The notes under the pieces were generated by a model that was given only the letters and a program-made list of their open reading frames with translations, was not told the DNA's origin and did no database searches. 64,000 nucleotides of DNA from NCBI RefSeq assembly GCF_036250675.1, contig NZ_CP109592.1:930001-994000 (forward strand). The letters are read 5' to 3'. How positions within the stretch are numbered: position 1 is the stretch's first letter; every line of letters starts with the position of its first letter. This document shows, piece by piece, positions 35,351-54,336 of this stretch. Made by a program: the position numbers and the translations under genes. This DNA is from Streptomyces sp. NBC_01689 (GTDB lineage: Bacteria; Actinomycetota; Actinomycetes; Streptomycetales; Streptomycetaceae).

Positions 35351-35495
35351 CCGATGATCTTTGAAGACGGACCCTAGTACGAGCCACCGTTCGAGGCCAG
35401 AAGAAAAAGAACAAGCTGAGAGCCTGTGTCTGAGCCTGGCATGCCAAGCGGGTCTTCCCTATTTATGCCGTGATCTTTCGCCAGTTCCCGGCACA

Positions 35496-37670: not shown

Positions 37671-37767
37671 GCTTGATGTCCTTGCTGGGAATGCAGACCG
37701 GCTGCCCAGTCGGGGATTCCCAGCGGTCGCTCTCGGTTCACACGGTGCTCGTATGGGCAGGGACGGG

Positions 37768-38676
37768 ATGCCCCGGCTGCGGCTGGTCGTGGTCACGGAC
37801 GACGATGCGCGGCCGCGGTTGTGTCGGGGGTGCGGTGGTCCGCTGATGCCGTCGGCGAAGGTGACGGCGGTGTTCTGCTCGTCGGCCTGCCGGTCGCGGC
37901 ATTGGCGGCGGATGCGGCGGGCTCGGGCGAGCACCGAGGCGGTCCAGGCTGGTGTGACATCCAGGTGTCCGGAGTGCGGGGCGTCGTGGACGGTCGGGGT
38001 CGAACGTCCTGCCTCGGCAGTGTACTGCTCTCCCGGCTGCCGCAAACGGGCCTGGCACAGGCGGCGCGCGAAGGTCGACTCCCCGGAGAGCGTCCAGGAG
38101 AAGGTCGAAGCGATCCACGACCTGGCCACCGACGACGCGGTCGCGGCCGTGGTGACCACCGACTTCCTGCGCCGTCCGGCAGTCGCCGACAAGGCCATGG
38201 CCGATGACACGGCCCGGCACGCGGTCAACGAAGCCCAGTTCGACCGTTTCCGTCAGCAGGCCCAGTTCGTTCACGAGGAGGCTGCCCCGCAGCTCCAGCG
38301 CATGGAGCACAGCGCCCTGCAGGAGGCCCGCCCCGCCGGACTGACCGTCACCCAGCTGATGGCCGCCACCGAACGCACCCGCGCGCAGATCCACACCGGG
38401 CTCGCGCACCTGCGCCAGGTCGCCGCCGCGCGTGGTCTGCCGCCCGTGACCTGGGACAGGAAGTGGGGATATCGGCTGCTGGACGACGCGCCGGAGGTGT
38501 GGATCGGCTACGAGCGGGCTTTCTTCGGCACCGTGCACCACCGCGTCGCCAACTTCATCGCCGGGATCCTCCTACCGCACCAGACCAAGACCCCCGACGA
38601 CCCCTATATCCGCACCGTCATGGCGCAGATGGGCGCGATCGAGTCCACCCTTCAGCTGCTGGCCAACCTGGAGTGA
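37768..38676 (+). CDS. Zinc-ribbon / RacP-like putative DNA-binding protein
   Basis: 302 residues. Two CxxC...CxxxC clusters (CRGCGGPL...FCSSACRSRHW and CPECGASW...YCSPGCRKRAW) look like treble-clef zinc fingers. A middle helical part (TDDAVAAVVTTDFLRRPAVADKAMADDTARHAVN) resembles plasmid-type regulatory proteins. The C-terminal winged-helix-like region (ARPAGLTVTQLMAATERTRAQIHTGLAHLRQVA; DPYIRTVMAQMGAIESTLQLL) matches what is annotated as RacP in streptomycetes. Start at 37768 with AGGGA upstream; 37753 is an alternative. Function unknown; its family and setting fit an integrated plasmid or mobile element. Confidence 0.68.
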   Translation: MPRLRLVVVTDDDARPRLCRGCGGPLMPSAKVTAVFCSSACRSRHWRRMRRARASTEAVQAGVTSRCPECGASWTVGVERPASAVYCSPGCRKRAWHRRRAKVDSPESVQEKVEAIHDLATDDAVAAVVTTDFLRRPAVADKAMADDTARHAVNEAQFDRFRQQAQFVHEEAAPQLQRMEHSALQEARPAGLTVTQLMAATERTRAQIHTGLAHLRQVAAARGLPPVTWDRKWGYRLLDDAPEVWIGYERAFFGTVHHRVANFIAGILLPHQTKTPDDPYIRTVMAQMGAIESTLQLLANLE

Positions 38677-39613: not shown

Positions 39614-39727
39614 AGACCAGCGCGCTGCTGCTGCCGTTCGGAGCGGCGACCATCGACGCCCAACCGAACGGCAAGTGGGATCACTACCACCCTTCACACG
39701 CTGCGACCTGCGAAAAGAGGATGTGAA

Positions 39728-40245
39728 ACAGCTTCTCACCGGTGACCGAGGGGATGGTGACCCGGGTAGCGGTCGGCCGGTACAGGGCGTCGTAGGAGCC
39801 GATCTGGCTGATGTACGACTTGCCGGCGGTGCCGGATCCGCCGACGTAGCGGATCGCTGAGGTCGGCTTCCCCTTCATCAGGGAGTCATAGGTCCACCTG
39901 GCGAGCTGGTGGTCGGCGTCCTGGACGGTGCCGTCGTACAGGCCGGTCTTTCGGCCAAGGACGTCGTAGGTGTAACTGAGGGTCTTCGCGTCTTTGGTGC
40001 CGACGGCGGTGGTGGTCGAGGCGACCTGATCGACGTCGTTGTAGACGGTGTTGGTCGTGCCGGTGTCCGGGTCACTGGAGGAGGTGTTGCGGCCCATCAG
40101 GTCGTAGCCGTAGGACCAGGTGTTGCCGTCATTGTCGACGACCTCTTTGAGACGGCTCTTCTGGTCGTAGTTGTACTTGATGGACGTGTAGGAGCCCGAC
40201 GGGCTGCCGCTGTCATACTGTCGGGTCTCGGTGGTACGGCCAAGT
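39728..40245 (-). pseudogene. Internal fragment of an RHS/YD-repeat protein
   Basis: One open frame of about 170 codons with YD-type repeats: YTSIKYNYDQKSRLKEVVDN, NTWSYGYDLMGRNTSS, LSYTYDVLGRKTGLYDG, YISQIGSYDALYRPTATRVTIP. Rhs/Wap proteins are large secreted or polymorphic toxins. Neither the N-terminal nor the variable C-terminal part is present: the IS3 element at 40246 cuts one end and unrelated sequence (IS5 area) the other. Confidence 0.8.
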
Positions 40246-40277: not shown

Positions 40278-41158
40278 TTACGCTGCGAGGGCGCGTCCTT
40301 GCTCGTGTCGCTGTCGGGTCTCCAGCAGGGTGAGGTAACCCCAGACCGGATGCCTGCGCAGACGCTTGCGGTTATAGAAGGTCTCGATGAAGGCGAAGAT
40401 CTCCGCGCGGGCACTGGCCCGGTCGGGCCAGCGGCGGGTTCCGATCTCCTCCTTCAACAGTGCGAAGAACGACTCGGCGGCGGCGTTGTCGAAGCACAAG
40501 CCGGTGCGCCCCATGCTCTGCCGGAGCCTAAGCCGGCTTATCTCACGGCGGAGTTCGTCGGAGGTGTATTCACTGCCGCGGTCCGAGTGGGCGATGCATC
40601 CGGGCTGGAGCCGACTGCGTCCGGCGGCCATCCTCAGCGCATCCACAATCAGGGATGCGCGGTGGTGGTCGGCCATCGAGTAGCCGACGATCTCGCGGGT
40701 GGCGAGGTCCAGCCAGGTCGCCAGATACAGCCGGCCCTCGTCGGTGGGGATGTAGGTGATGTCGCCGACCACCTTCATCCCCGGCGCACTCGCGGTGAAG
40801 TCGCGGCCGAGCAGGTCCGGGGCGGGCACCGCCCTTTTCGCCGGGCGGGTCAGGCTGCGGCGCTTGCGCCGTGTGACGCCGCTGATGCCGCGTTCACGCA
40901 TGACGCGCTCTATGCGCTTGCGGTTGATCCGGTGTCCGAGCCGCCGCAGCCCGGCATGGATCCGCGGCACCCCATAGGCACCGCGGGAGGCGCGATGCAG
41001 CACGGTGATCTCGTGGGCCAGGGCGTCGTCGGCGGCCTGCTTCGCCCGCCGGCCAGCCACGCGTAGAAGGAGGAGCGGACCACCTTCAACAGTCGGCACG
41101 ACAGAGCAACATCGTGGGTGGTCTTCTCCGCCTCGATGAACGCGTACACCTCGCTCAC
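40278..41158 (-). pseudogene. IS3-family transposase OrfB, frameshifted
   Basis: The N-terminal part (SEVYAFIEAEKTTHDVALSC, RLLKVVRSSFYAWLAG) is in one frame. From about 41050 the sequence continues in another (RRAKQAADDALAHEITVLHR, KVVGDITYIPTDEGRLYLAT, HSDRGSEYTSDEL, GLCFDNAAAESFFALLKEE). The DDE residues are all present in the second frame. A single-base indel near 41050 explains it. Confidence 0.85.
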
Positions 41159-41460
41159 CGATCGCTCTCCTTCGCGAAGAAGACCGCCGCTTTTCGCAGT
41201 ACCTCGATTGTCTCCGCCTGCTCGGCGGCCACCCTCCGCAGCCGGCGCAGCTCTTCGCGCTCGGCCGTCGTCAGTTCTCCCGGCGCCCCCTGCCCGCGGT
41301 CGGTCGCATCCTGCTTGACCCAGTTCCGCAGTCCCTCGGCGCAGACCCCGGGCCGGCGGGCCACCTCGGTCACGGTCTTCCCGGACGAGTGCACGAGCGC
41401 GACCGCGTCCCGTTTGACCTCCTCCGTGTACTGCCTGCTGCGGTTGCTCTTACTTCCCAC
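41155..41460 (-). CDS. IS3-family transposase OrfA
   Basis: 101 residues: RQYTEEVKRDAVALVHSSGKTVTEVARRPGVCAEGLRNWVKQ is the HTH; REELRRLRRVAAEQAETIEVLRKAAVFFAKE is the zipper. Overlaps the OrfB start by four bases. Intact as read. Confidence 0.85.
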   Translation of the reverse strand: MGSKSNRSRQYTEEVKRDAVALVHSSGKTVTEVARRPGVCAEGLRNWVKQDATDRGQGAPGELTTAEREELRRLRRVAAEQAETIEVLRKAAVFFAKESDR

Positions 41461-41633
41461 CTGGCACTACTTCCTCTGGAACCTCATGTCCCAGTCTCCA
41501 GGTGTCCACGATCAAGGGGAAGGTTCCCGGGCGACTGGCGGTATCGATGCTGACCTGGTCTAACGCGTCACGTAAGCGTTCGGGACGTGCTCGGATCGGG
41601 GCATCGGAGAGCCGCTTGGCACAAGAGACGCTT

Positions 41634-43847
41634 TCAGGTGGCCAAGATCGTCACGCGGTCGAGCTGGACAGCCGTCGGCGACGAGGCGATGGCGCCGACC
41701 GCGTCCTTCGACCGGTCGTCCGCCACCTCTCCGAAGATCGTGTACTGCCCGTTCAGATGGGGCGCCGGAGCAAGGGTGATGAAGAACTGGGAGCCGGTGC
41801 TGTCCCGGCCCAGATTCGCCATGGCCAGTTGGAACGGCCGCTCAAATGAACGGTCCGGATGGATTTCGTCGGGTATCCGGTATCCGGCGCTGCCTTGCCC
41901 AGTGCCCAGCCGATCGCCGCCCTGGACGACAAAGCCCGGCACACGGCGGTGGAAGACCGTGCCGTTGTAGAAACCGCCCTCTCCGGTGGCCCCGGTCAGG
42001 GGGTCGGTCCAGGTGCGGCTTCCGGTAGCCAGGCCCACGAAGTTGTCCGCGGTGTAGGGGGCTTCGTCGGGGCGCAGTTCGAGGTGGATGTCGCCGAGCT
42101 CGGTGCGCAGGACCGCGGCAAGGGATCGGTAGGTCCTCAAGGAGGAGGAGAAGGGACGGCGGGCAGGCGTCTGGCGAATCCGTACTGGGGAGTCGCGCAG
42201 CGGGTCACTCAGGGGGGCGAACACGCCCCGGTCGCTGCGGTCGCCGCATCCGACCGTGCCCGGTGCGTTTGCGTACAGGCCGGTTGCGCTCCATCCCGAT
42301 GGGTCGGTACGGACCTCAGCCGGCGCGGCCGGGCGCGACCCGAGCCACATCGGATGGCCCTCCGCCGAGTCGAGGCGCTGTGCCTGCCACAGTTCCCCTA
42401 CTTCGGCCGAGGCGTGGGTCAGCAGGGTGTCGAGATCGGTCGCCGCTTGGGCGTCCAGCACCTCACGCATGGTCGTTGTGTCGTGGTACTTGTCGAAGAG
42501 CGAGCCGTTGTTGTGCTCCAGGGTGAAGCACTGGTCGACGAAGACCCGGTCGGGCAGCTCGTGCCGGACGTAGCGCCGGACCATGGCGGCCACCGGTGCC
42601 CACGCTTCTCCGCCGAACTCGACGCCCGGACCGGCGAATGCCTCCGTGGCGAGCTGCAGCGCCCGACCGTGGCCCATCTCGCGGCGCAGCCGTTGCCATG
42701 TGACACGGCTGTCGCCCTGGTTGATCTCCGTGATGAAGTCCGCCAGTTCCTGCGGATGGTGGTGCGTTCTGGCTCGTTCGTAGTGTCCGAGCTCGTTGCC
42801 GATCACGTTGTCCAGATGCCCCGCCAGTTCAGCGCACAGATGGGGCAGCCAGCGGAACAGTCGTGCTCTGGCCGTGCGGTCGCCCGCCGCGGTCAGCCAT
42901 TCCAGCAGGTAGAAGTCGGCGGCGAGCGAGGAGGGGTCGACGGAGTCGACGAACCAGCGCGGGCTGTGTGCGGCGAGGTTCTCGGCCATCAGGGTCAGGG
43001 CTTCGGCGCGGTCGACGTCGCCGTCGAGGTATCGGGGCCAGTGCCGTTCGGCTACGGAGTACAGGCGCGCGTAGCGCCACTTGGTGCCGAGTACGTCGGC
43101 ACAGGGACGGTGGGCAAAGTCCACCGCCCGTACCAAATGGCCGGCGGTCATTTCCACGAGGATCTTGGTGAGGAGAACCCGCAGCCGGCGCTGGTATGGA
43201 GAGCTACCGGGCATGCGGCGGACCAACTCGGTGGACAGGTGGCAGTCGGGGACGGCCCCGGATTTCAGCTGCGCCCAGCCCAGCATGGTCAGGACGGCGT
43301 CCGCGAGCGTCGATCCACGGAAGCGGCGGCAGTCAACGTAGACGCCCGTGGCTTTGCCCGCGTCGACCAGGAAGCCCGTGGCTGGCGGGGCGGGCGCGAG
43401 CGGCACGAGGTGGAGGTCCAGCGTCCGCTCAGTCTCGTTGGTGCCCAGCGCCGCGCAGAGGGGAGCCAGGTAACGCTCGGGCGGGAGGAAGTCGTTGATC
43501 TCCGCAGTCGCCTGCTTGCGGACGTCCTCGAACCGGTGGAGCGCCTCGGCGAGGGTCGGCGCCGCGGCGGTCAGCGCGGTGGTGACGAGTTCCGTTCCGG
43601 GACGAAGGCGGTCGTCGTCGACGAGGGCTATGAGGTCCTCCGGTTGGCGGGCGGCGGCCAGGAACGCGGGCAGGCCGGAGCCGACGGTCCGCGCCCATGA
43701 CCGCAGTCCGTCAAGGAACGGGTCCGTCTCCGGGGTGACCGGCCGGGGCAGGAAGTTGGGCTCCCAGGAGCCGGTGCGGCCGATCAGCTCGCGCTGCAGG
43801 GCGAGTGCGAGGTCGAGGGTGGTGCTGCGCTTCTGACGGAACTTCAC
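41634..43847 (-). CDS. Large RiPP-cluster protein with a C-terminal cyclophilin-type peptidyl-prolyl isomerase domain
   Basis: 737 residues. About 1-560 has no domain I recognize; it is soluble and helical, with an acidic FVDQCFTLEHNNGSLFDKYHD segment. About 575-737 is a cyclophilin: LGDIHLELRPDEAPYTADNF, GTVFHRRVPGFVVQGGDRLGTG, RPFQLAMANLGRDSTGSQFFITLAP, LNGQYTIFGEV, with the catalytic Arg of FHRRVPGF and QGGD kept. Cyclophilins of this size are not usual in Streptomyces. GTG start overlaps the preceding nucleotidyltransferase stop (ATGTGA), so it is the last gene of the radical SAM operon. Likely role: folding or presenting the precursor peptide during modification. Confidence 0.8.
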   Translation of the reverse strand: MKFRQKRSTTLDLALALQRELIGRTGSWEPNFLPRPVTPETDPFLDGLRSWARTVGSGLPAFLAAARQPEDLIALVDDDRLRPGTELVTTALTAAAPTLAEALHRFEDVRKQATAEINDFLPPERYLAPLCAALGTNETERTLDLHLVPLAPAPPATGFLVDAGKATGVYVDCRRFRGSTLADAVLTMLGWAQLKSGAVPDCHLSTELVRRMPGSSPYQRRLRVLLTKILVEMTAGHLVRAVDFAHRPCADVLGTKWRYARLYSVAERHWPRYLDGDVDRAEALTLMAENLAAHSPRWFVDSVDPSSLAADFYLLEWLTAAGDRTARARLFRWLPHLCAELAGHLDNVIGNELGHYERARTHHHPQELADFITEINQGDSRVTWQRLRREMGHGRALQLATEAFAGPGVEFGGEAWAPVAAMVRRYVRHELPDRVFVDQCFTLEHNNGSLFDKYHDTTTMREVLDAQAATDLDTLLTHASAEVGELWQAQRLDSAEGHPMWLGSRPAAPAEVRTDPSGWSATGLYANAPGTVGCGDRSDRGVFAPLSDPLRDSPVRIRQTPARRPFSSSLRTYRSLAAVLRTELGDIHLELRPDEAPYTADNFVGLATGSRTWTDPLTGATGEGGFYNGTVFHRRVPGFVVQGGDRLGTGQGSAGYRIPDEIHPDRSFERPFQLAMANLGRDSTGSQFFITLAPAPHLNGQYTIFGEVADDRSKDAVGAIASSPTAVQLDRVTILAT

Positions 43848-44935
43848 ATCGCTCCCCAATGTCCGCCCGTCTCGGTGAGCAGACCCGCTTCCCGCAACTC
43901 GGTCGTGATGCGCCGGCACCGCTCGTCGGTCAGTCCGGCGAACGCGGGCGCCTCCTTCGACAGTCGCAGCGAGTGCTCGGTGACGGTCTGCGCAGAACGC
44001 CCGTCGCTCAGGCCCCAGACCAGCGCCGCGTCGGGCGGCAGGCGGAAGTGCCGGCCAGCGGGCTGGACCAGCGTCACCATGTCGTCGTAGGCGCGCGGGA
44101 GAAACGCTGGGGACCTGCGCAGCGGACCGCTCCCCGCGGGCCAGGCGGGCCAGCGGGAGACGTCGACGCCCTGCCAGCCGAGGGTGGCCGTGGCGATCAG
44201 GCAGGTCTGGGCGAACGACGTCAGCGCGGTCAGGCCTGCATAGGGGTCGACGGCCAGGGGGTCGTCCCGCAAGAGCCGTTGGAACTCCGGGAAAGGGAAC
44301 CCGTCGGGGCCGCTGCGGGCGAGCTGCCGCCACACCCATTTCTCGCCGAAGTAGAGGTCCCCGCCTGCCGCGGCCAGCGCCTTCCCCGCGCACACGAGGG
44401 CGCGCCGACCGGCGAGCGCGGCCGCGTCCAGGTCGGACGGGTCGTCCGACTGGCGCAGTCCGAGGCAGTCCTCGGCCGCGAAGAACGCGGCGAGCATCCA
44501 GTTGTTCATGACCAGTCGGGAGAGCCGCAGAGGATGCTCGTCGAGTCGTTTACGCAGCGCGGCCAGCGTGCCCGAGTCGGTCACGATGTCACCGGTGCGC
44601 AGCCGGACGGTCAGCGCGATCTCACGGTCCGACAGCGTCTCCCCCGCCGGGTCCGAGTGCAGTCCCGTGCCAAGGACTCGGTCGACGAGCGACTCCAGGG
44701 TGTCCAGGGAGAGATGCTGTACGTCGACACGGATGTCGTCGGCGAACATCTGCTGCCGTTTCTCTCCCGCCGGGGCGCCGACCAGATAGACGTCGATGTC
44801 GCTGGTGGCGCTGCCCAGCCCGACTGCCGAACTGCCGGCGAGGAACGCGGCGTCCGCGTGTGTCGACGCGGCCAGGCGGGACACGATGCTCCTGCCTAGG
44901 CGCACTCGGTCTTGGGCCGATGCAACTGCTGTCAT
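43844..44935 (-). CDS. Nucleotidyltransferase-domain protein of the RiPP cluster
   Basis: 363 residues. The N-terminal Pol-beta-type domain has GSSAVGLGSATSDIDVYLVG: GS at 34-35 and the metal-binding pair Asp46/Asp48. A helical middle resembles aminoglycoside-nucleotidyltransferase-like proteins (LVMNNWMLAAFFAAEDCLGL). The C-terminal region (about 300-360) is a small winged helix (RRITTELREAGLLTETGGHW). Such enzymes transfer NMP to an alcohol, amine or protein. ATG 44935 with GGAGG nine bases upstream; 34 bases after the radical SAM gene and overlapping the next gene. In this setting it may nucleotidylate the peptide or a partner protein; no direct evidence. Confidence 0.82.
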   Translation of the reverse strand: MTAVASAQDRVRLGRSIVSRLAASTHADAAFLAGSSAVGLGSATSDIDVYLVGAPAGEKRQQMFADDIRVDVQHLSLDTLESLVDRVLGTGLHSDPAGETLSDREIALTVRLRTGDIVTDSGTLAALRKRLDEHPLRLSRLVMNNWMLAAFFAAEDCLGLRQSDDPSDLDAAALAGRRALVCAGKALAAAGGDLYFGEKWVWRQLARSGPDGFPFPEFQRLLRDDPLAVDPYAGLTALTSFAQTCLIATATLGWQGVDVSRWPAWPAGSGPLRRSPAFLPRAYDDMVTLVQPAGRHFRLPPDAALVWGLSDGRSAQTVTEHSLRLSKEAPAFAGLTDERCRRITTELREAGLLTETGGHWGAM

Positions 44936-44969
44936 GCGCTCATCCCTCCTTGGCACGGGGCCACGACGG

Positions 44970-46889
44970 CTACCAGCCGGGGTTCTCCGGCAGTGCGAGC
45001 CCGAGGTACTTGCTGTCGTCCGACACCATCACGTCGGCGCGACAGCACTGTTCGAGGAAGGCCGTCACCTCGTCCTCGGAGACTGACACGTCATGTGCCG
45101 CCAGCAGGCGGGCGATCGCCGCCGCTGAACGGGGCGCGTCTCCGCAGGCTTCGTAGGCTTCCGCCTTCCAGCCCGCGAGGACGGCCCGCTTGGGCTGGTC
45201 GGTCCTGCGGTCGATCAGCGTCAGCTTCCCGGGCAGCCGCTGGTAGACGAGGCTGGGCTTCGACTCGGCGAAGCGGGTCTGCCATGTGGAGACGGCGGCG
45301 TTTAACGCGGTGACCGTCTCGTGGGACACGGTGCCGGACGCCTCGTAGTCGAAGAAGTACGCGATCTTCTCGGGGTCCAACGAGGCCGGGTAGACATGGC
45401 CGTAGCTGGCCCGGGGCCGGACCTTGTCGATGGGGAAGGACGGGTCGGTGAAATAGGGGCTGAAGCGTTCCAGCCAGATCCTTCCGCAGCCCCCGGGCGG
45501 CTGCAGATGGTGCAGAAGCGGGAGCAGGCGCAGCTGCTCGGCGTAGTCTTCCTCGGTCTCCCCCGGGAATCCCGCCAGGATGTTCCAGGCCACGTCGATC
45601 CCGTAGTAACCGGCCCATTTCAGGAGCCGGATGTTGATCAGCTTGCTCGCGCCCTTGCGCATCAGTTGCAGCACATGGGTGCTGAGGCTCTCGATGCCGG
45701 GCTGGATGCGGAGGATCCCGACGCTTTTCAGGGTCGCAAGCTGCTCCCGGGTGAGATTGGCCTTCACCTCGAAGAAGAGGTTCACGTCCCAGTGCTCTCG
45801 GGCCAGCAGCGTGCAGAGCGACGAGAAGTACCCCATGTCCAGGATGTTGTCGACGGTGTCGACATGCACCACCGGGTAGTCGCGCAGCAGCGCGCTGAGC
45901 TCGGTGAACGCGCGCTCGCCGGACTTGGAGCGGTACGCCATGCCGAGCGCGTTGAGACCGCAGAAGGTGCAGTGGTGTTTCTGGCCCCACCAGCATCCCC
46001 GGGAGAACTCGACCGGCAGTCGTACGGGCGCCCGGCCGAGCAGCCGGGCGCGGTCGAAGCGCTCCAGCCAGGCGAAGTAGTCCCGATAGTCCGGGGTGGG
46101 AAGGTCGTCGAGGGCCTGCGGACGCTGCGCGTCGGCGGCCTGCGGCGCGTGCGTGGTGGCATGCCGCAGGACGCCGGTAATCGGGGTGTCCGTGCCGTCG
46201 GCGATGTTCTTCAGCAGGGCGGGGAACACGATGTCGCCCTCGCCGGCCACCACGTAGTCGAGCCAGGGCAGCTTCCTCGCGTACTCGGCGCCCATCTCCC
46301 CGTCGAAGTTGGCGCCTCCGTAGACCAGGGTCACACCGGGGTGGAATTCCTTGATCTTCCTCCCCAGTGCGAGGGACGCCGTGTTCTGCATGAACGTGGA
46401 GGTGAACCCGATGACGTCGTACTCTCCCCACACCGGTTTGGCCGCGCATGCGGCGATCCAGTCCGGCAGCGTCTTGCGGCGCATCTCCACGAGGTCCTCG
46501 AGGCCTTTTCCGGTGAGCTCGTCCCAGATGGACTTCACTTCCGGATATTCGGCGAAGTAGTCGTCGTCCGGGGTCACTTCGCCGAACGCGGCGTAGGAAA
46601 AGAGCCACTCCCCCATCAGGTGCAGCCGTTCCGAGGCGACGTTGGCGATGGTGTCGTAGGCCTTGCTGCCGAAGAAGGAGGCGAACTCGATGTTGAGGTA
46701 GTGGCTGTCGCACTCGTGCCCGGCCTCGCGGGTGATCGACTGCAACAGTCCGCACTGGATGGAGGGCGCATGGATGCGCGCCCAAGGCATGTTGATCAGG
46801 GCGACACGCAGAGCCTTGCCGGGCGGTGAAGCGGACGCCGCGTGGTCCGCTTCGGTCCGCACGGCCAGGGGCAGGCGGATGATGCTCAT
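44970..46889 (-). CDS. B12-type radical SAM RiPP maturation enzyme
   Basis: 639 residues. N-terminal B12-binding-like Rossmann domain (about 27-240: VALINMPWARIHAPSIQCGLL, YDVIGFTSTFMQNTASLALG, VTLVYGGANFDGEMG), then the radical SAM barrel with FSRGCWWGQKHHCTFCGLN: Cys299, Cys307, Cys310 bind the [4Fe-4S] cluster in a C-x7-C-x2-C pattern. That pattern and the order of domains are typical of the family called ribosomal peptide maturation radical SAM protein 1. A C-terminal region of about 110 residues may bind the leader peptide. It probably alkylates or otherwise modifies the 46-aa peptide encoded upstream. ATG with GAGGGGAAACCG; 30 bases after the permease gene. Confidence 0.92.
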   Translation of the reverse strand: MSIIRLPLAVRTEADHAASASPPGKALRVALINMPWARIHAPSIQCGLLQSITREAGHECDSHYLNIEFASFFGSKAYDTIANVASERLHLMGEWLFSYAAFGEVTPDDDYFAEYPEVKSIWDELTGKGLEDLVEMRRKTLPDWIAACAAKPVWGEYDVIGFTSTFMQNTASLALGRKIKEFHPGVTLVYGGANFDGEMGAEYARKLPWLDYVVAGEGDIVFPALLKNIADGTDTPITGVLRHATTHAPQAADAQRPQALDDLPTPDYRDYFAWLERFDRARLLGRAPVRLPVEFSRGCWWGQKHHCTFCGLNALGMAYRSKSGERAFTELSALLRDYPVVHVDTVDNILDMGYFSSLCTLLAREHWDVNLFFEVKANLTREQLATLKSVGILRIQPGIESLSTHVLQLMRKGASKLINIRLLKWAGYYGIDVAWNILAGFPGETEEDYAEQLRLLPLLHHLQPPGGCGRIWLERFSPYFTDPSFPIDKVRPRASYGHVYPASLDPEKIAYFFDYEASGTVSHETVTALNAAVSTWQTRFAESKPSLVYQRLPGKLTLIDRRTDQPKRAVLAGWKAEAYEACGDAPRSAAAIARLLAAHDVSVSEDEVTAFLEQCCRADVMVSDDSKYLGLALPENPGW

Positions 46890-46919
46890 CGGTTTCCCCT
46901 CGGGTCTGGGCAGCATCAG

Positions 46920-47744
46920 TCACTCGAAGTCGTCGTGGCCGTATCTGCTCGCGCGCCGGGCCTGGAGGAGGATCGACAGCGCGGCGAGGACGGTGAACCC
47001 GAGACCGGCGGCGACCTCCAGGCCCAGGTCGCCGAGCCACGGCCTGCCCTCCATCCCCGCGCGGACGGCGTCCAGGCCGTGCCGCGCCGGCAGCACCTGG
47101 CCGATCGCGTCCACCCATCCCACCCGGCCGGGCGGGACGATCGCGCCGCTGCACAGCATGACCAGGTAGGACAGGACGTTCGGGGCCACCACGTCGGCCC
47201 GTTTGCCGACCGTCATCGTCGCCCCGGCGAGCCCCAGCACGCTGAGCGTGAACGCGATCAGCGCGTACACCCACGCCCAGGGCAGCAGTCGCAGGGCGAA
47301 GTCCGTCATGCCGAGCAGGGGCGCCGCGATTGCGCCCTGGACGACCAGGAGGACCCAGCCCATGACGGGGTAGGGCAGCACCCGGGCGATCTGGGTGACG
47401 GTGGGCGACAGCGCGCCGGTGCGGACCCGCGCGAAGGTGGCGTACTGCTTGTCCAGGACGGGCACGGCGACCACGCCGTTGACGTTGGTGCTGCTCAGCG
47501 CCAGCACCAACGATCCGGCGAAGGCGTACTCGCGATGTCCGGGACCCGCGAGGACGCCCGCGAGCGTCGTGAAGAACAAGATCTGCAGGACCCCGCGCGG
47601 CAGGGTCGCGCCGAGCAGACCGGCGGGCGTCTGGAGCACCCGGTACTCCAGCCAGCCCATGCGGGCCGCCTCGGCCGACCGCCAGGCCAGGGAGGCGCGG
47701 GCCGGGGCTGCGGCGTGCGAGGGGGCGATGTCATGCGAGGTCAA
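46920..47744 (-). CDS. ABC-2 type exporter permease subunit
   Basis: 274 residues, about six membrane segments (e.g. VLQILFFTTLAGVLAG, LLPWAWVYALIAFTLSVLGLAG, VAAGLGFTVLAALSILL) and the ABC-2 signature near LSYLVMLCSGAIVPPGRVGW. TTG start with GGAGGGGA upstream, overlapping the previous permease by 14 bases. With the ATPase and second permease it forms a heterodimeric exporter, probably for the matured peptide. Confidence 0.85.
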   Translation of the reverse strand: MTSHDIAPSHAAAPARASLAWRSAEAARMGWLEYRVLQTPAGLLGATLPRGVLQILFFTTLAGVLAGPGHREYAFAGSLVLALSSTNVNGVVAVPVLDKQYATFARVRTGALSPTVTQIARVLPYPVMGWVLLVVQGAIAAPLLGMTDFALRLLPWAWVYALIAFTLSVLGLAGATMTVGKRADVVAPNVLSYLVMLCSGAIVPPGRVGWVDAIGQVLPARHGLDAVRAGMEGRPWLGDLGLEVAAGLGFTVLAALSILLQARRASRYGHDDFE

Positions 47745-48498
47745 GCGTCCCCTCCTTCCGGGACCTCTCGACGGACCGGCGGTAGGCGAAGCCCGCGGCG
47801 GAGAAGTAGGCGAGGGTCAACAGCATCGCGACGCCCAGCGGGGCGAGCGTGACGCCCCCGGTGCTCGCATCGACCAGACAGTCCTTGATCCAGTGCAGGC
47901 TGAGCAGTTCGGGCGCCCAGCGCAGCCACTCGGGCAGCGCGTCCGTGGGGATGAGCAGTCCGCCCAGGGCGAAGACCGGGTACATCAGCGCGTGGGACCA
48001 CACCAGCCCGTTGCGGGTCACCAGGAAGAGGCAGGACACCAGCGCCCCCAGAGCGGTGCCCGAGCACACCAGCACCACGAGCGACACGACGGCCCACGCC
48101 GGGTGCGACACGCTCAGCGGCAGCTCCAGCGCCGCCGCGGTGACGCCGGTGCTGACGAGGATCGCGCCGACGCTGGTGACGGTGGCGCCCAGGCTCTTGC
48201 CCAGCAGCACCAGGTAGGGCGACCAGACTCCGGAGACACAGCGGGCCAGGGTGCCGAAGGTGCGCTCGCGGCGCAGGACTCCTCCGCTCATCCACACCGT
48301 GGAGCCCCACAGCGCGGTCAGCATCACGGCCACGATGAGTTCGGCCGCGCCGTCGGAGCCGGGGCGGCCGGTCTCCACCGCGATGACCAGGAACACGGCG
48401 GGCAGCATCCCGGAGTTGACCAGCAGCAGCGGATTGCGTTGCATGGCCCGCTGCTCCATGCGGAACGCGGTCAGGAACATCCACGCGGCGCCCCTCAC
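47731..48498 (-). CDS. ABC-2 type exporter permease subunit
   Basis: 255 residues, about six membrane helices; GVLRRERTFGTLARCVSGVW and YPVFALGGLLIPTDALPEW are typical of ABC-2 permeases. GTG start within the ATPase stop (GTGA). Pairs with the downstream permease. Export or self-immunity for the RiPP product. Confidence 0.85.
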   Translation of the reverse strand: MRGAAWMFLTAFRMEQRAMQRNPLLLVNSGMLPAVFLVIAVETGRPGSDGAAELIVAVMLTALWGSTVWMSGGVLRRERTFGTLARCVSGVWSPYLVLLGKSLGATVTSVGAILVSTGVTAAALELPLSVSHPAWAVVSLVVLVCSGTALGALVSCLFLVTRNGLVWSHALMYPVFALGGLLIPTDALPEWLRWAPELLSLHWIKDCLVDASTGGVTLAPLGVAMLLTLAYFSAAGFAYRRSVERSRKEGTLDLA

Positions 48499-49475
48499 TT
48501 CACTCCACCGACCTGGCGGCCGTCGGCCAGGCGCGCGGCCACGTGCGAGTAGACGTCCTCCAGCCGCACCGGGTCGATGCGCACGTCCAGCACGCTGACG
48601 TGCACCAACGCCTGCTCCAGCAGGCCGAACGAGCCGACACTCCAGTCGCGGACGTGCAGCCGGAGGGTCCACGACTCGTCGGCCACCTCGACGCCGCCGA
48701 CGGCGATGTCGGGGGACGACAGGGCGCCGCCGTCGGGCGGGCTGCCGGTGCCGCGCACGGTCACCGTGGCGGTGTAGCCGGCCTGCCGGGCGAACTCCTC
48801 GACTGGTAGGTCCGCCGCCAATGTGCCGTCCGCGAGGATGATCACCCGGCTGGCGAGGCGTTCGATGTCGAGCAGATAGTGGCTCGTGAGCAGGACCGAG
48901 ACTCCGGTGTCGCGCAGGCGGGCGACGGTGCCGCGCAGCCGTTCGGCCTCGACCGGGTCGAGGCCCACGGTCGGTTCGTCGAGCAGCAGGACGCGCGGCT
49001 CGGCGATCATGCCGATGGCGATGTGGAGGCGCTGGCGCATGCCCTTGGAGTACGTCTCCACCGCGCGGTCTGCCGCGCCGACCAGGCCGACCTCCTCCAG
49101 CGCGGCGTCCAGCTTCGCGCTCAGGCCGCGCCGGCCCACGCCGGCGAGCATGGCGAAGAACCGCAGGTTGTCGCGGCCGTTCAGCTTGGCGTAGAGGCCA
49201 CGGTCGCCGCCCAGCACGACGCCGGTCATACGGCGCACCTCGCGCAGATCGCGGGTGACGTCGTGGCCGAAGATCCGGGCGGCACCGGCCGTGGGCAGCA
49301 GCAGGGTGGCGAGGATCTTGGTGAGGGTGGTCTTGCCCGCGCCGTTGCTGCCCAGCAGGCCCACGATCTCGCCAGCCCCGACCTGGAAGCTGACGTCCCG
49401 CAGGGCCACGAGTTCGCGGCCGCGGTCGATGAAGATACGGCCGAGCCGTTCCACGACGATCGCCGGCTCGCTCAA
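48495..49475 (-). CDS. ABC transporter ATP-binding protein
   Basis: 326 residues. Walker A GSNGAGKT, Q-loop region TGVVLGGDRGLYAK, signature YSKGMRQRLH (variant of LSGGQ: YSKGM), Walker B RVLLLDEPTVGLDP, and switch His in LLTSHYL. A C-terminal extension of about 80 residues is as in multidrug and antibiotic exporters of the DrrA type. TTG start overlaps the PPDK-like stop (TTGA). Powers the two permeases that follow. Confidence 0.92.
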   Translation of the reverse strand: MSEPAIVVERLGRIFIDRGRELVALRDVSFQVGAGEIVGLLGSNGAGKTTLTKILATLLLPTAGAARIFGHDVTRDLREVRRMTGVVLGGDRGLYAKLNGRDNLRFFAMLAGVGRRGLSAKLDAALEEVGLVGAADRAVETYSKGMRQRLHIAIGMIAEPRVLLLDEPTVGLDPVEAERLRGTVARLRDTGVSVLLTSHYLLDIERLASRVIILADGTLAADLPVEEFARQAGYTATVTVRGTGSPPDGGALSSPDIAVGGVEVADESWTLRLHVRDWSVGSFGLLEQALVHVSVLDVRIDPVRLEDVYSHVAARLADGRQVGGVK

Positions 49476-51787
49476 CGCCCCGCCCCCGTCGGATGAACGT
49501 CCGTCGCTCCTTGTGCGACGGCGGCCCGCGCGGCGGCGAGTCTGGCCAGCGGGATCCGTGGCGGCGCGCACGAGACGTGGTCGAAGCCCGCCTCGGCGAA
49601 GAACCGCACGGCCGCCGCATCGGCCGCCTGCTCGCCGCAGACGCCGAGCGTGATGTCGGGGCGTACGGCCCGTGCCTCGGCAGCGACCTGGCGTGCCAGG
49701 GTCCCGACCGCCTCGACGTCCAGCCGGGCGAAGGGGGATTCGGCGAGGAGGCCCACGTCCTGGTAGGCGGGCAGCAGGTGCTGTTCGGCGTCGTCGCGGG
49801 ACAGGCCCCAGACAAGTGCGGTGAGGTCGTTGGTGCCCAGAGACAGGGAGTCCGCACGGCGGGCGATCGACCCGGCCAGCAGCGCGGCCCGCGGGGTCTC
49901 GATCATGGCGCCCAGCGAGATGCCCGCCTGGGCCCGGGAGGTTCCCAGGTGGGCGCAGACGTCGTCGAGCATGCCCCGGACGAAGTCCAGTTCCGCCGGC
50001 GCGCTGACCATGGGGACCAGGAGTTCGGGCCGCGGGTCCCGGCCGGCGCGGCGCAACGCGAGGGTCGCTTCCACCAGCGCCTTGATCTGTACGGCCGTCA
50101 GCGCCGGGAGCAGGACTCCCATCCGCACGCCGCGCACTCCCAGCATGGGGTTGTGCTCGTGCAGGCGGCGGGTTATGTCGAGGCGGTCCCGGTCGGCGGG
50201 GGCGCCCGTCGCCGCCGTGGTCAGGGAGAGTTCGGTCAGGTCGGGGAGGAACTCGTGGCGCGGGGGGTCGAGCAGACGGATCGTGACAGGCCGTCCGTCC
50301 ATCGCGGCAAGTATGTCCGTGATCTCCGCCCGCAGGAGGGCGTGCACGGTGGCGAGGTCCTCCGACATGTCGGGACCGGGCCGGGCCATCAGGACCCGTT
50401 GGAGCATCTGATGGCGCTCGCCGAGGAACATGTGCTCGAGCCGGCACAGTCCCACGCCGTCGGCGCCCAGTGCCCGCCCGGCGGCGGCGTCCGCGCCGGT
50501 GTCGGCGTTCACCCGCACGGCGATGCCGGGCAGCCCCGACAGCGCCTCGTCCAGCCAGCCGGGCAGCTCCGGAGCGACCTGCCCTTCGGCGGTGGGCCCC
50601 GTGCGGCCGCCGAGGTGGATCACTCCGGCGTGGCCGTCCACCGTGACCAGGTCGCCGGCGCGGACGGTGTCGCCGTGCCTGGTGCGCAGGACCTTGGCGT
50701 CGGCGTCCAGGACACCGTCGACGAGGGCGGCGACGGCCGGCAGTCCCAGTCCGCGCGCCACGACCGCGGCGTGCGACGTCTGTCCGCCCCGCTCGGTGAC
50801 GACGGCCGTCGCGGCCAGCAGACCCGGAAGATCCTCCGGCCTCGACTCGGTGAGGACCAGCACCGGCTGCCCGCCGTTCGCCTGCGCGGCAACGGCGTCG
50901 GTCGCGCTGAAAACGACGGTGCCGGAGGCGATGCCGGGCGACACGCCGAGGCCGCGCGCCGCCACGGGCAGATCGAGGGATTGCGCCACCCCAGAACGCG
51001 CTTGTTCGACGTCCAGCGGCTCCACCAGCGACACCGCCTGCGCGGGGGTCAGCCGGCCGCGTTCGTACCGGGTGGCCACAGCGTGCAGGAGAGCGGCACC
51101 GCGCAGGGATGCTCGGGTGCTTGTGACGATGTGGGACCTGCCCTCCTCGACGAGGAACTCCACCCTCGCCGGCCAGTCGAGTTCGGCCTCGGCGGCCTGG
51201 ACCGCCTCCCGTACCTGCGGGCCCCAGGGCTGCGTGTCGATCAGTTCGGCGAGATCCGCGCCGCCCGCTGTCAGCAGCTGGGCTCCTGATCCCCCGGCAA
51301 GAAAGGAGCCCGTCACGCCGGGCCGGCCGGTCGACGGATCGCAGGAGCAGGCGAGTCCACTGCCTCCGTCAGGGCCGCACCACAGCGGCTGTCGCCCGAG
51401 CCCGAACTGGGCCGGACCGGTCTCGGCCCTGGTCAACGCCCGCACCAAGGCGGTTACTTGCTCGAGCGGGTGGTCCGGCAACGCGGCACCGGGGTCCGCG
51501 ACGGCCAGCGCGGCGGTCAGTTCGGCCCGGCGTGCCGCGGCAAAGCCGTCACCGGCGAGCCCTACCAGCCACTGGTAACTGGCAGGGCTCAGACCGAGAA
51601 ACGACAGACAGCTTCCCTTCAGGCAGGGAAGCCATGCTGTCAGGAAGACGGGGCGCTTCGCACTCCCGAGACGACGGTCGGGATCGAGCGTGACGATCGC
51701 CTCATGAATGGTGTCGTCAGCGGCGTCGACCGGCAGCCACAGCACTGAATCAGTAGAAAAGACGACCGGCAGACGATCCATGACCAC
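49472..51787 (-). CDS. PEP-utilizing (pyruvate phosphate dikinase-like) enzyme with degraded ATP-grasp half
   Basis: About 771 residues. The swivelling phospho-His domain is intact (GGQTSHAAVVARGLGLPAV, His339). The C-terminal PEP/pyruvate barrel is intact: GADGVGLCRLEHMFLG, TIRLLDPPRHEFLP, LGTNDLTALVWG, GVCGEQAAD with the proton-donor Cys near 717, and FDHVSCAPPRIPLARLA. The ATP-grasp part is short and altered: no KGxNL start, and the usual SRDPxTG and LQTR motifs read SCDPSTG and VTSTR, so the Gln before TR is lost. It may use PEP as donor and phosphorylate something else. Start uncertain: GTG 51787 (GGGGA eight bases before) preferred to 51802 or 51868. First enzyme gene after the precursor. 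Confidence 0.82.
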   Translation of the reverse strand: MVMDRLPVVFSTDSVLWLPVDAADDTIHEAIVTLDPDRRLGSAKRPVFLTAWLPCLKGSCLSFLGLSPASYQWLVGLAGDGFAAARRAELTAALAVADPGAALPDHPLEQVTALVRALTRAETGPAQFGLGRQPLWCGPDGGSGLACSCDPSTGRPGVTGSFLAGGSGAQLLTAGGADLAELIDTQPWGPQVREAVQAAEAELDWPARVEFLVEEGRSHIVTSTRASLRGAALLHAVATRYERGRLTPAQAVSLVEPLDVEQARSGVAQSLDLPVAARGLGVSPGIASGTVVFSATDAVAAQANGGQPVLVLTESRPEDLPGLLAATAVVTERGGQTSHAAVVARGLGLPAVAALVDGVLDADAKVLRTRHGDTVRAGDLVTVDGHAGVIHLGGRTGPTAEGQVAPELPGWLDEALSGLPGIAVRVNADTGADAAAGRALGADGVGLCRLEHMFLGERHQMLQRVLMARPGPDMSEDLATVHALLRAEITDILAAMDGRPVTIRLLDPPRHEFLPDLTELSLTTAATGAPADRDRLDITRRLHEHNPMLGVRGVRMGVLLPALTAVQIKALVEATLALRRAGRDPRPELLVPMVSAPAELDFVRGMLDDVCAHLGTSRAQAGISLGAMIETPRAALLAGSIARRADSLSLGTNDLTALVWGLSRDDAEQHLLPAYQDVGLLAESPFARLDVEAVGTLARQVAAEARAVRPDITLGVCGEQAADAAAVRFFAEAGFDHVSCAPPRIPLARLAAARAAVAQGATDVHPTGAGR

Positions 51788-51857
51788 GCGCTGAATCCCC
51801 ATCCCCAAGGGCCGAGGCCCGGCACCGTTTCCGGTGGTGAACCTCTGGTGACAACAG

Positions 51858-51879
51858 GCCCCCGGCACAGGCGGGGGGC
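51858..51879 (-). terminator. GC hairpin between precursor peptide and first enzyme gene
   Basis: GCCCCC/GGGGGC stem (51858-51863 with 51874-51879) and a 10-base loop, 18 bases after the precursor stop. In RiPP operons such a weak hairpin commonly attenuates transcription so the precursor is made in excess. Confidence 0.5.
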
Positions 51880-51896
51880 GGGTTGACGAGCGGACT

Positions 51897-52037
51897 TTAC
51901 CGGCTCACGAACTCCGGGCGGACACCGAGCAGGTACACACGGTCGTCCAGGTCAGCGGCATCCTCCGGGGCGATCGGAGAGAACTCCAGCTCGGCCAGGT
52001 CGGCGAGCTCCTCGACATTCGAGTTTGTTATGTCCAT
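51897..52037 (-). CDS. Putative RiPP precursor peptide, 46 aa
   Basis: Short ORF in the right place: first gene, immediately upstream of the PPDK-like and radical SAM operon, with a hairpin after it. It begins MDITNSNVEELADL and ends VYLLGVRPEFVSR. The N-terminal 30 residues are acidic and helical (many Glu, Asp, Leu), like a leader; the C-terminal stretch has Tyr, Leu, Val, Arg, Phe and Ser suited to modification. There is no Cys, no Thr beyond position 4 and no GG-type cleavage site, which argues against a lanthipeptide or sactipeptide. ATG with GGAG very close; TTGTGG-N17-TAGCGT upstream could be its promoter. Bounded upstream by an in-frame TAG. Confidence 0.7.
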   Translation of the reverse strand: MDITNSNVEELADLAELEFSPIAPEDAADLDDRVYLLGVRPEFVSR

Positions 52038-52228
52038 GCTCCGACGCTAACAGCGAGCACTTCTGACCACAAGGTGAACTCCTGGTGTCCACAGGGAAGT
52101 TGACGAGAATCGACTCCACGGAACGCACGGGACGTCTGGTCGTCGCTGCTCACCCAGGAACACCCCCGGATGCGTCCGGCCGACATTTTCCAGCCATTCG
52201 CCGAAGGAATTCGCAAAGCCTCCGGACT

Positions 52229-52843
52229 ATGCTCACGCGGGTGCGGATTACCAAGTACACCCATTCCTGTGTCCGGTTGGAGCACGACGGCGGTGGCACG
52301 CTGGTCATCGATCCCGGCGTCTGGAGCGAGACCGAGGCACTCGCCGGCGCGGACGCGGTCCTGGTGACCCACGAGCACAACGATCACGTCGACCTGTTGC
52401 GGCTGAAGGGGCTGGGCGTGCCCGTCTACGCCCCCAAGTCGGCGCGGATCCCGGGCCTGGACTTCACCGGCGTCGTCCCCGGCGAGGAGTTCACCGCGGC
52501 AAGCTTCCGGGTGACCGCCCAGGGCGGGCGGCACGCGCGCATCTACGGCGACCTCCCGGACTGCGCCAATCTCGGCTACCTCGTCGAGGACCGCGTCTAC
52601 CACCCCGGGGACTCCCTGTACCCTCCCGACCGACCGGTGGAGACCCTGCTGGTTCCCCTGCAGGGGTCATGGATGAAGACGGACGAGGCCATCGACTTCG
52701 TCCGCGCCGTCCAGCCGGAACGGGCCTACGGCATCCACGACGGGCAGATCAACGAGCGGGGCCTGGGCAGCCTCAACGGCTGGCTCGCCGACGAGTGTGG
52801 CGACTGCTACCGCTGGCTCCCGCCAGGCTCGTCCGCCCGATGA
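52229..52843 (+). CDS. MBL-fold metallo-hydrolase
   Basis: 204 residues. VTHEHNDHVDLLRLKG carries the HxHxDH zinc motif; later YHPGDSLYPP and AYGIHDGQIN give the other metal ligands. The pattern resembles UlaG/UPF0173-like hydrolases. No signal peptide. ATG 52229 or GTG 52241; neither has a strong ribosome binding site, and the frame is open upstream. Divergent from the RiPP precursor (about 190 bases between starts) and overlapping the phosphatase that follows. Role in the peptide pathway possible but unproven. Confidence 0.85.
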   Translation: MLTRVRITKYTHSCVRLEHDGGGTLVIDPGVWSETEALAGADAVLVTHEHNDHVDLLRLKGLGVPVYAPKSARIPGLDFTGVVPGEEFTAASFRVTAQGGRHARIYGDLPDCANLGYLVEDRVYHPGDSLYPPDRPVETLLVPLQGSWMKTDEAIDFVRAVQPERAYGIHDGQINERGLGSLNGWLADECGDCYRWLPPGSSAR

Positions 52844-53433
52844 CCGAGTCGTCCGCCCCCGTCCTGTTCACTGTCGCCGGTCCGCGGGGACCGGGGCGCC
52901 TGAGCACCATGGTCCGGCCCCGCGGTCACGGGCTCCTGGCCGCCGACATGGCGGCCCTGCGCGGCGCCGGCGCCGACATCCTCGTCTGCGCCCTCCCCGA
53001 CGCTGAGCGCGCCGAACTCGGGCTCACCGACGAGCCCCGCCTCGCCGTGGCCGCCGGGCTGCGGTTCGTCGCCCTGCCCATCCCCGACTTCACGGTCCCG
53101 TCAATCCCCGTCGTGCTGCCGGCGCTGCGGGAGCTCGCCGCGGAGCTGCGGGCCGGCGCCCATGTCGTGGCGCACTGCCGCTGCGCCATCGGACGGTCCT
53201 CCCTGATCGCGGTCTCCCTGATGATCCTCTTGGACATCGCGCCGGAGGCCGCCTGGACGGCCATGGAACGAGCCAGGGGGACGAGGGTGCCGGACACCGA
53301 GGAGCAGCGCGCGTGGACGCTGGAGTTCTTCCGCCTCGTCTCCGCTGGTGGGCAGCACCCCGGTCGGCACCGCGCGGCCGGGGAGCTGGAGCGTCCGTCC
53401 CCAGCGGACCCTCAGCAGCCGTCGGCCCGGTGA
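52840..53433 (+). CDS. Dual-specificity/tyrosine phosphatase-like protein
   Basis: 197 residues. Active site HCRCAIGRSS fits HC-x5-R-S (Cys nucleophile, Arg for phosphate). The general-acid region PIPDFTVPS precedes it. ATG overlaps the preceding stop (ATGA), so it is cotranslated with the metallo-hydrolase. The C-terminal 25 residues are low complexity. A phosphatase beside a dikinase-like enzyme is suggestive, but the two are on opposite strands. Confidence 0.83.
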   Translation: MTESSAPVLFTVAGPRGPGRLSTMVRPRGHGLLAADMAALRGAGADILVCALPDAERAELGLTDEPRLAVAAGLRFVALPIPDFTVPSIPVVLPALRELAAELRAGAHVVAHCRCAIGRSSLIAVSLMILLDIAPEAAWTAMERARGTRVPDTEEQRAWTLEFFRLVSAGGQHPGRHRAAGELERPSPADPQQPSAR

Positions 53434-53650
53434 TCGCCGGCCTCGTGACCACCGTCTTGCGGCGCCCCGGGCGTGCCTGACGGCGTCGGCACTGCGCCCG
53501 GCGGTTCGGGCGCCGACGCGGGCAGGTGGGCGTCGTCCTGCCGGGCGGTGCTCAGTAGCGCGGAGCGGCCATCGGCGGGGGCGAAGCCGATGGCGCGCAG
53601 CAGCGGAGTCGTCAGAGCCGTGGTGATCAGGGCGACGAGGGTGAGAACCC
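53412..53650 (-). pseudogene. C-terminal fragment of a cation/proton antiporter
   Basis: GVLTLVALITTALTTPLLRA, followed by IGFAPADGR, is the last membrane helix and end of a Na+/H+ exchanger-type protein. The upstream membrane domains are missing; homology stops near 53650. Overlaps the phosphatase 3' end. Confidence 0.6.
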
Positions 53651-53854
53651 CGCCGCACGTCGCGGGACGCGACACCGCCCGTTTGCGGCTGGGTCGGGCC
53701 GGGGCGCGTTACTGGCCTTGCGACCAGTCCGTTTCCCCGACCCGCCCGCCGCGTGCCCGTGCGTGTCTCCACGCAACGGGCGCTCCACGTGCCTTGGCCG
53801 GTGGTCAGCTACCGATGCTGTGGGGTCGTATTCGCGCGCGCCTAGGCCCACCCT

Positions 53855-54045
53855 CTTTCCAAGGTCCTGATCTCGATGCCGGGAATCGGCGTCAGGACCG
53901 GAGCCGTACCCTCACCGAGGTCGGTGACGGCAGCGCCCTCCCAACCGCCGACCACCTCTCCGCCTATGCCGGACTCGCCCCGGCGACCCGCAGCTCCGGG
54001 TCCTCGATTCGCGGCAAACAGCCCTCCAAGAGGCGGATTCCTCGC
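53855..54045 (+). pseudogene. IS110-family transposase fragment
   Basis: MPGIGVRTGAV in one frame continues, after a shift near 53915, as LTEVGDGSALPTADHLSAYAG and SSGSSIRGKQPSKR, the C-terminal Transposase_20 region of IS110 elements. Both ends are lost. No gene is seen from 53651 to 53854 or from 54046 to 54336. Confidence 0.7.
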
Positions 54046-54336
54046 GAGAACCGTCCTCTCCCCCACCCCCCACCATCACCCTGAAGCGCCGACGTCGAGA
54101 AGACCGACACGCTCCCGCCGAGAACGACAGCTGTCGCCGGAGTAGTCCCTGCCGGGCGAGCCCTGACCATAGGTTCCGGTCGCAGAGGGTGTCGACTCGG
54201 CCGCCGCGCCAGCGCAGACCCTCGACAGGTTCCGGCGGAGCCGTTGGTAGAGATCTTCATCCGCGTCGCTCTCGCTGTTGAATCGTTTCCCGGTCAGGGT
54301 GGGTCGTCAGCAACGCCAAATTGGCAGGATGCAGCC

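Follow-up and report, generated by a model that had tools for sequence, protein, structure and literature searches.

The question raised by this locus is what chemistry is encoded in a compact minus-strand operon of Streptomyces sp. NBC_01689, in which a very short gene heads a row of genes specifying a radical SAM (S-adenosylmethionine) protein, a relative of pyruvate phosphate dikinase (PPDK), a nucleotidyltransferase (NTase) and a long protein ending in a cyclophilin domain. The operon lies in a stretch of 64,000 nt (contig NZ_CP109592.1, positions 930,001 to 994,000; hereafter the window) of a 9.96-Mb genome, and the named public relatives closest to the window are Streptomyces. An initial annotation of the window described eight closely packed minus-strand genes led by a 46-aa peptide; all eight were confirmed in place, and they form an operon of the type that makes ribosomally synthesized and post-translationally modified peptides (RiPPs). 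The reading favoured here, with a probability of about 0.5, is a RiPP cluster in which the NTase would bind the leader of the precursor, and the peptide would be C-methylated, phosphorylated from phosphoenolpyruvate (PEP) by way of a domain of the cyclophilin protein (domain X), nucleotidylated and exported.

The 46-aa precursor (51897..52037, minus strand) has a leader with the motif DLAELEFSPI and the core DDRVYLLGVRPEFVSR. Eighty-five proteins with domain X joined to a cyclophilin (X-cyclophilins) were listed, and the contexts of 14 loci were compared: the window, eight close Streptomyces (L016-L021, L168 and L169), G188 of the same genus (L022 and L030), three genomes of one other genus (G691, L036 and L039; G655, L037 and L040; G335, L038 and L041) and G803 (L044). 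A precursor was found at all 14, and homologous operons without a short peptide were looked for among them with none detected. The alignment of the short peptides, a check proposed in the initial annotation, covered 12 of the 14 loci (L168 and L169 came later and were left out) and gave ten invariant residues: M1, D13, L14, E16, F19, R33, Y35, L36, G38 and V39. The conserved residues thus spell DL.E..F in the leader and R.YL.GV in the core, the full core pattern being [DN]R[VTI]YL[LF]GV[HR], so that a linked short precursor with both a conserved leader and a conserved core is present, as in RiPP clusters. In an alignment of seven Streptomyces copies, 7, 8 and 20 sites vary at codon positions 1, 2 and 3, and this excess of third-position variation, with the recurrence of the precursor at 14/14 loci, makes the operon more than a product of chance.

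The radical SAM protein (648 aa; 44970..46916, minus strand) had been described as a Cx7Cx2C enzyme of a type that modifies ribosomal peptides, and this holds: it scores 652.6 bits against TIGR03975 (rSAM_ocin_1), far over the cut-off of 281.85, and is a member of that family. Its motif, CWWGQKHHCTFC at residue 308, has the Cx7Cx2C spacing, and the B12-binding Pfam family gives 21.5 bits, under its cut-off of 32.1. By family membership, it is a predicted RiPP C-methyltransferase of the B12-binding type. The Cx7Cx2C arrangement has been described for the C-beta methyltransferases of polytheonamide (PoyB/PoyC) and bottromycin, likewise B12 radical SAM enzymes in RiPP pathways, and PoyC methylates valine, but the available excerpt of that source makes no mention of phosphotransfer, nucleotidyl-transfer or X-cyclophilin genes like those of the present operon (PMC5682303).

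The NTase (43844..44956, minus strand) reaches only 12.4 bits against the Pfam family NTP_transf_2 (cut-off 21) and was recognized by its predicted aminoglycoside nucleotidyltransferase fold and catalytic Asp motif. Its closest folds are aminoglycoside nucleotidyltransferases, and the MNT nucleotidyltransferases of HEPN-MNT pairs are also among its fold neighbours. The C-terminal domain (residues 270-360) resembles, in the predicted fold, PqqD and the RiPP recognition element (RRE), and the NTase therefore probably acts on a leader-bearing peptide, which raises the likelihood of peptide modification. NTase matches occurred in 13 genomes, four of them close relatives in which the gene lies inside such a cluster; for the other nine, contexts were listed for L023, L024, L025 and L027, tblastn was used for L026, L028 and L029, and G078, G160 and G176 were left out. 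At L027:7516-12466 (G159, same genus) an NTase with a PqqD-like end (E 4.3e-4) lies near a second radical SAM gene and ABC permease genes, possibly a separate RiPP cluster, and at L024:10332-13530 (G029) an NTase with a PqqD-like end (E 0.0085) adjoins ABC exporter genes.

The protein previously read as dikinase-like (769 aa; 49472..51781, minus strand, with alternative starts at 51802 and 51868) retains one half of that description. The swivelling phosphohistidine domain (PF00391, 2.7e-17), with its histidine at position 337, and the PEP-binding barrel (PF02896, 7e-59) are both strong matches, and the motifs TSHA, RLLDPP, MIE, GTND and GVCGE are kept, as in PPDK and in enzyme I of the phosphotransferase system (PTS). 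The other half does not stand: there is no match to the ATP-grasp domain PPDK_N, which among nine alignment members was found only in P0150, a canonical PPDK included for reference, and no PPDK_N region occurs at the operon in the genome, which carries canonical PPDK copies elsewhere. The best alignments to solved PPDKs begin at about residue 247 of 873, and K22, R92, D321 and Q335, which we take to be the ATP-site positions of PPDK, are not kept. The HPr-binding domain of PTS enzyme I (PEP-utilisers_N) gives 16.7 and 16.9 bits, under the cut-off of 24.4. Judged by these residues, the PPDK-like protein appears to be a PEP-side half enzyme and not a dikinase, with the ATP-grasp reduced to a relic. 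Since the swivel histidine and the PEP-site residues are kept and the ATP site is lost, the PEP-to-histidine half reaction would be expected of it, and the ATP half would not. It differs from both dikinase and enzyme I in its proposed partner, the X-cyclophilin.

The X-cyclophilin (737 aa; 41634..43847, minus strand) was first noted for its cyclophilin end, which is clear (PF00160, 7.2e-36, over the cut-off), but that domain is better regarded as the tail of a region of about 560 residues that includes domain X. The region gave no consistent Pfam or NCBIfam family (isolated weak matches of single members only) and no match to PDB sequences, profile search included. Structure searches with the 737-aa model were filled by cyclophilins and do not thereby show the fold of the X region to be new. 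A relationship was found among viruses, where phrog_20946, a PHROG family of no assigned function, matches residues 336-492 of a 559-residue fragment (2.6e-14). Relatives of X occur in 32 Vibrio phage records, and in all six that were opened the gene order is PPDK-like, a protein of about 160 aa, a protein tyrosine phosphatase (PTP), and then X. The PPDK-like open reading frame (ORF) of L047 was recognized by hidden Markov model (HMM) only, and the PTP of L050, annotated as hypothetical, is matched by an HMM built without it (5.5e-34). In IMG/VR, 26 viral X loci were found (one phage X as query yielded 1 contig, a phage-only profile 4, an actinobacterial profile none and a combined alignment 24), and 13 have a PPDK-like ORF in the flank, the remainder being cut contigs, long X-only ORFs or tandem X arrays. 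At L063 and L064, a single reading frame encodes both PPDK and X, X following the swivel domain at the place of the PEP domain. Four of the viral contigs (L068, L069, L070 and L072) have five tandem X-domain ORFs and then a PTP, with no PPDK-like ORF in the flank.

The link between X and the swivel enzyme was also approached from the other side, using the best 80 of 152 viral PPDK-like relatives found with a query built from X-linked loci. X was present at 58 of the 65 loci whose PPDK-like protein lacks a PEP domain, 57 of these 58 also having a PTP, and the seven without X are on contigs that end within 0-924 bp downstream; neither X nor PTP was found at any of the 15 loci with a PEP domain, three of which (L085, L093 and L120) have only 2.4-2.7 kb of downstream sequence. 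By Fisher's exact test, p = 6.9e-16 for 58/58 against 0/15, or 2.6e-11 when all 65 are counted, figures to be read with the loci not fully independent, as the 80 fall into 60 clusters at 70% identity, four of which hold the PEP-domain members. Seven of the 58 X-bearing loci had already come from the X search (L077, L097, L127, L128, L143, L151 and L153), and 51 were new. All 11 aligned viral PPDK-like proteins retain the ATP-site residues, so that the two settings have opposite halves of the dikinase, the ATP side in viruses and the PEP side in the RiPP clusters, and share the swivel histidine and X. Because X is tied to PPDK-like proteins without a PEP domain and can be fused to them, it would seem to be the station that receives phosphate in a modular swivel-type phosphotransferase, for which the donor is presumably ATP in the viruses and PEP in the RiPP cluster. 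Outside the viruses, a PTP also accompanies X in 8/9 close Streptomyces loci and 2/2 further actinobacterial loci but in none (0/5) of the remaining X-cyclophilin clusters; at the loci that have one, the arrangement is consistent with a kinase paired with a phosphatase. The two further loci, in two other genomes of the phylum (L166:8972-10811 and L167:9225-10624), have an X without cyclophilin adjoining an overlapping PTP ORF, and no PPDK-like ORF occurs in the DNA fetched for them. In the window, the phosphatase matches a phage PTP found beside phage X (BLASTP E 3e-6).

As the initial annotation had proposed to examine, the enzymes occur together: the PPDK-like protein, a full-length radical SAM protein and the NTase are present at 13 of the 14 X-cyclophilin loci, spanning Streptomyces and the genus of G335. 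In G188 and the second genus, the cluster occupies both strands or has another gene order, and the set is therefore kept by more than shared position. Sequence identity to the window proteins is only about 41-63% for the radical SAM, NTase, X-cyclophilin and PPDK-like proteins of the divergent clusters. The NTase and PPDK-like matches of G188 each have one internal stop marked, yet lie in open frames of 382 and 738 aa. The exception is L044, where the radical SAM protein lacks its N-terminal half and the genome has no operon-type PPDK-like protein or NTase; this reduced cluster (L044:9879-18625) includes a longer-tailed precursor, the C-terminal half of the radical SAM protein, an X-cyclophilin, an ABC trio, an S9 prolyl oligopeptidase and a metallo-beta-lactamase (MBL)-fold gene. 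ORF comparison revealed no further gene family common to the divergent clusters beyond chance neighbours, five shared ORFs being set aside as such: a transposase, an ORF antisense to the NTase gene, and three secreted enzymes, two of which match cutinases/PET hydrolases and arabinofuranosidases by sequence, while the third matches the other two over 120-140 residues. In the G188 cluster (L022:3997-6008 and L022:9208-11295), a RiPP enzyme of the MbnB/TglH/ChrH type, a second nucleotidyltransferase (NTP_transf_5) and an Exo_endo_phos protein adjoin the radical SAM, NTase and X-cyclophilin genes. The system is rare, occurring in 6/392 genomes of the genus and 2/394 of the class (the genome of the window being counted in both), and in 3/160 genomes of the genus of G335 and 3/300 of its family, one of these three (G937, E 2.4e-4) being a weak match to X interrupted by stops, which was left out of the counts of loci.

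In the favoured pathway, the RRE-like domain predicted in the NTase would bind the acidic leader of the precursor, and the B12 radical SAM enzyme would methylate the core at an unactivated carbon, most likely in the invariant Val of YL[LF]GV. The PPDK-like protein, whose PEP-side active-site residues are in place, would move phosphate from PEP onto its swivelling histidine, from where it would pass to an acceptor bound by domain X. This acceptor would most likely be the precursor, and probably its invariant Tyr35, because Tyr is the sole hydroxyl residue conserved in the core. The NTase might next add a nucleotide to the phosphorylated residue or to the phosphate, the phosphatase and MBL-fold hydrolase encoded beside the operon could have a part in trimming the product or in protecting the producer, and export of the product presumably falls to the ABC trio. 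It is proposed more tentatively, and with some doubt, that this would be a new RiPP chemistry, in which a split three-station phosphotransferase (PEP barrel, phosphohistidine, and X in trans) phosphorylates a peptide that also undergoes RRE-guided nucleotidylation and C-methylation by a B12 radical SAM enzyme, X being shared with a widespread viral kinase/phosphatase cassette, where it occupies the position that the PEP domain has in PPDK.

Other explanations share parts of this evidence. The product could be a C-methylated RiPP for which the PPDK-like protein, X-cyclophilin and NTase make or attach a separate small phosphorylated or nucleotide group, as in a conjugate like microcin C, and do not phosphorylate the peptide as such. 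The NTase does have the fold of small-molecule nucleotidyltransferases and no peptide partner was identified beside viral X, but its RRE-like domain, and the lack of any small-molecule biosynthesis gene common to the divergent clusters, leave this explanation doubtful. That the end product is a conserved cofactor or signal in the style of PQQ or mycofactocin, by the same enzymology and with no antibiotic role, is unlikely given the very patchy distribution (6/392 genomes of the genus) and the dedicated exporter trio, even with a core that hardly varies (the same R, Y, L, G and V in all 12 aligned precursors) despite the divergence of the enzymes.

Self-protection is another possibility, in which the NTase, phosphotransferase and phosphatase would cap the active peptide with phosphate or nucleotide within the cell, and the cap would come off during or after export, in a manner comparable to drug inactivation by aminoglycoside nucleotidyltransferases. 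The presence of a phosphatase and an MBL-fold hydrolase in the block is in keeping with such a role, as are the closest folds of the NTase, yet the RRE-like domain favours action on the leader-bearing precursor and L044 retains the peptide without NTase or PPDK-like protein, so that self-protection seems improbable. Least probable by far is that the locus is not a RiPP cluster at all, the short peptide instead acting as a regulator or antitoxin within a defence or signalling system akin to the viral PPDK-X-PTP cassette. X is common to viruses and the NTase has the MNT proteins among its fold neighbours, but the radical SAM score, the RRE-like domain and the pattern of leader and core conservation all argue for a RiPP, and a PADLOC scan of six proteins returned a single weak match (NTase to PDC-M05A, E 0.0036), on which grounds assignment to a defence system was rejected. 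Overall, the RiPP interpretation of the initial annotation is supported.

The gene set was also compared with described systems. Lasso peptides are defined by a B1/B2 protease and an asparagine-synthetase-like cyclase, neither of which is among the operon proteins scanned, and membership of that class was rejected. There is nonetheless a likeness to pseudomycoidin-type lasso peptides, in which a kinase (PsmK) and a nucleotidyltransferase-like enzyme (PsmN) tailor a RiPP, PsmN adding a hexose at phosphorylated Ser, according to the excerpt available (PMC9266682). By analogy, this offers a precedent for a kinase and nucleotidyltransferase pair acting on a RiPP, but the present operon differs in having no lasso cyclase or protease, in its PEP-side PPDK-like donor and in an NTase with its own RRE-like domain. 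Daptides, a RiPP class found via RRE domains, have nucleotidyltransferases in some clusters and are defined by an oxidative decarboxylase, an aminotransferase and an RRE protein, the first two being present in all clusters surveyed in the part of the study available (PMC10036551); neither decarboxylase nor aminotransferase is among the operon proteins scanned, and daptide membership was likewise rejected. The viral cassette of Vibrio phages and IMG/VR contigs has X, a swivel-histidine enzyme and a PTP in common with the present locus and differs in that its PPDK-like protein keeps the ATP half and lacks a PEP domain. No radical SAM protein, NTase or precursor was identified there, no systematic search having been made for them, and the main text of a review of viral NAD/ADPr systems does not contain the terms PPDK, dikinase, DSP-PTPase, cyclophilin or phosphohistidine (PMC9503650). 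The enzymology could not be matched to any described RiPP class, and no description of the gene set was recognized in open-licence literature (subscription papers and preprints lying outside this scope), in agreement with the first impression of an undescribed modification chemistry. If the proposal is true, PEP-driven phosphotransfer and RRE-guided nucleotidylation would join RiPP chemistry, and the nearly fixed core motif RxYLxGV would be a search target for mass spectrometry. It would also provide a first functional handle on the X family, which in many viruses neighbours a phosphatase and a dikinase-like enzyme, and the link between X and the swivel domain is directly testable on the fused viral proteins.

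The remaining minus-strand genes encode the ABC trio: a DrrA-like exporter ATPase (48495..49475; PF00005, 2.1e-29; TIGR01188, 219.9 bits, under the cut-off of 312.45) and two ABC-2 permeases (47731..48498; PF01061, 5.8e-13; and 46920..47744; PF01061, 3.6e-12). From the PPDK-like gene to the cyclophilin gene, the gaps are, in order, -4, -4, -14, +3, +13 and -4 nt, and 115 nt separate the precursor from the PPDK-like gene, counting its ATG at 51781. A promoter-like element, TTGTGG-N15-GTTAGC (52046..52072, minus strand), ends 8 nt before the precursor ATG. The hexamer pair, picked by eye and without a shuffle control, is found in 7/7 Streptomyces copies with a spacer of 15-16 and 8-9 nt to the ATG, one copy having TTGAGG/GTTAAC and one ATTAGC, and its closeness to the ATG suggests a leaderless transcript. 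Right after the precursor lies a G+C-rich hairpin (51847..51887, minus strand), which folds in 6/6 Streptomyces copies (L021 was left out) with energies of -13.1 to -21.9 kcal/mol and stems that differ in sequence, again without a shuffle control, and is a possible partial terminator.

The eight genes do not mark the limit of what is conserved, and in this respect the extent first given to the operon falls short: in most close relatives the conserved block continues to about 53456, and it includes two divergent plus-strand genes, which overlap. These encode an MBL-fold hydrolase (52229..52843; PF13483, 1.8e-19), present in 9/9 close Streptomyces loci and at L044, and the phosphatase mentioned above, of the dual-specificity (DSP)/PTP type (52840..53433; PF22785, 29.6 bits, cut-off 27), with the HCx5R motif HCRCAIGR. 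DNA identity with close relatives starts at the X-cyclophilin stop (41630-41646 in all six loci compared), and its far end is near 53456 in most of them (L016 53456, L017 53454, L020 53453, L019 53361, L021 53343, L018 52840), with three short extra matching pieces beyond the block (L016 53565-53638; L018 39386-39497 and 58108-58667). Transposase genes flank both sides, an IS3-type gene at 40278-41460 and an IS110-type piece at 53473-54084, consistent with a mobile island. Spread by plasmids was rejected, as the N-terminal region of the X-cyclophilin had no match in the plasmid collection; the PTP alone had four matches there and is for that reason not cluster-specific. Beyond the downstream transposase are genes for a NACHT-domain protein (35361-37670) and a DUF6192 protein (37561-38676), and a minus-strand ORF at 39684-40097 resembles, judged by eye, a fragment of an RHS-repeat protein.

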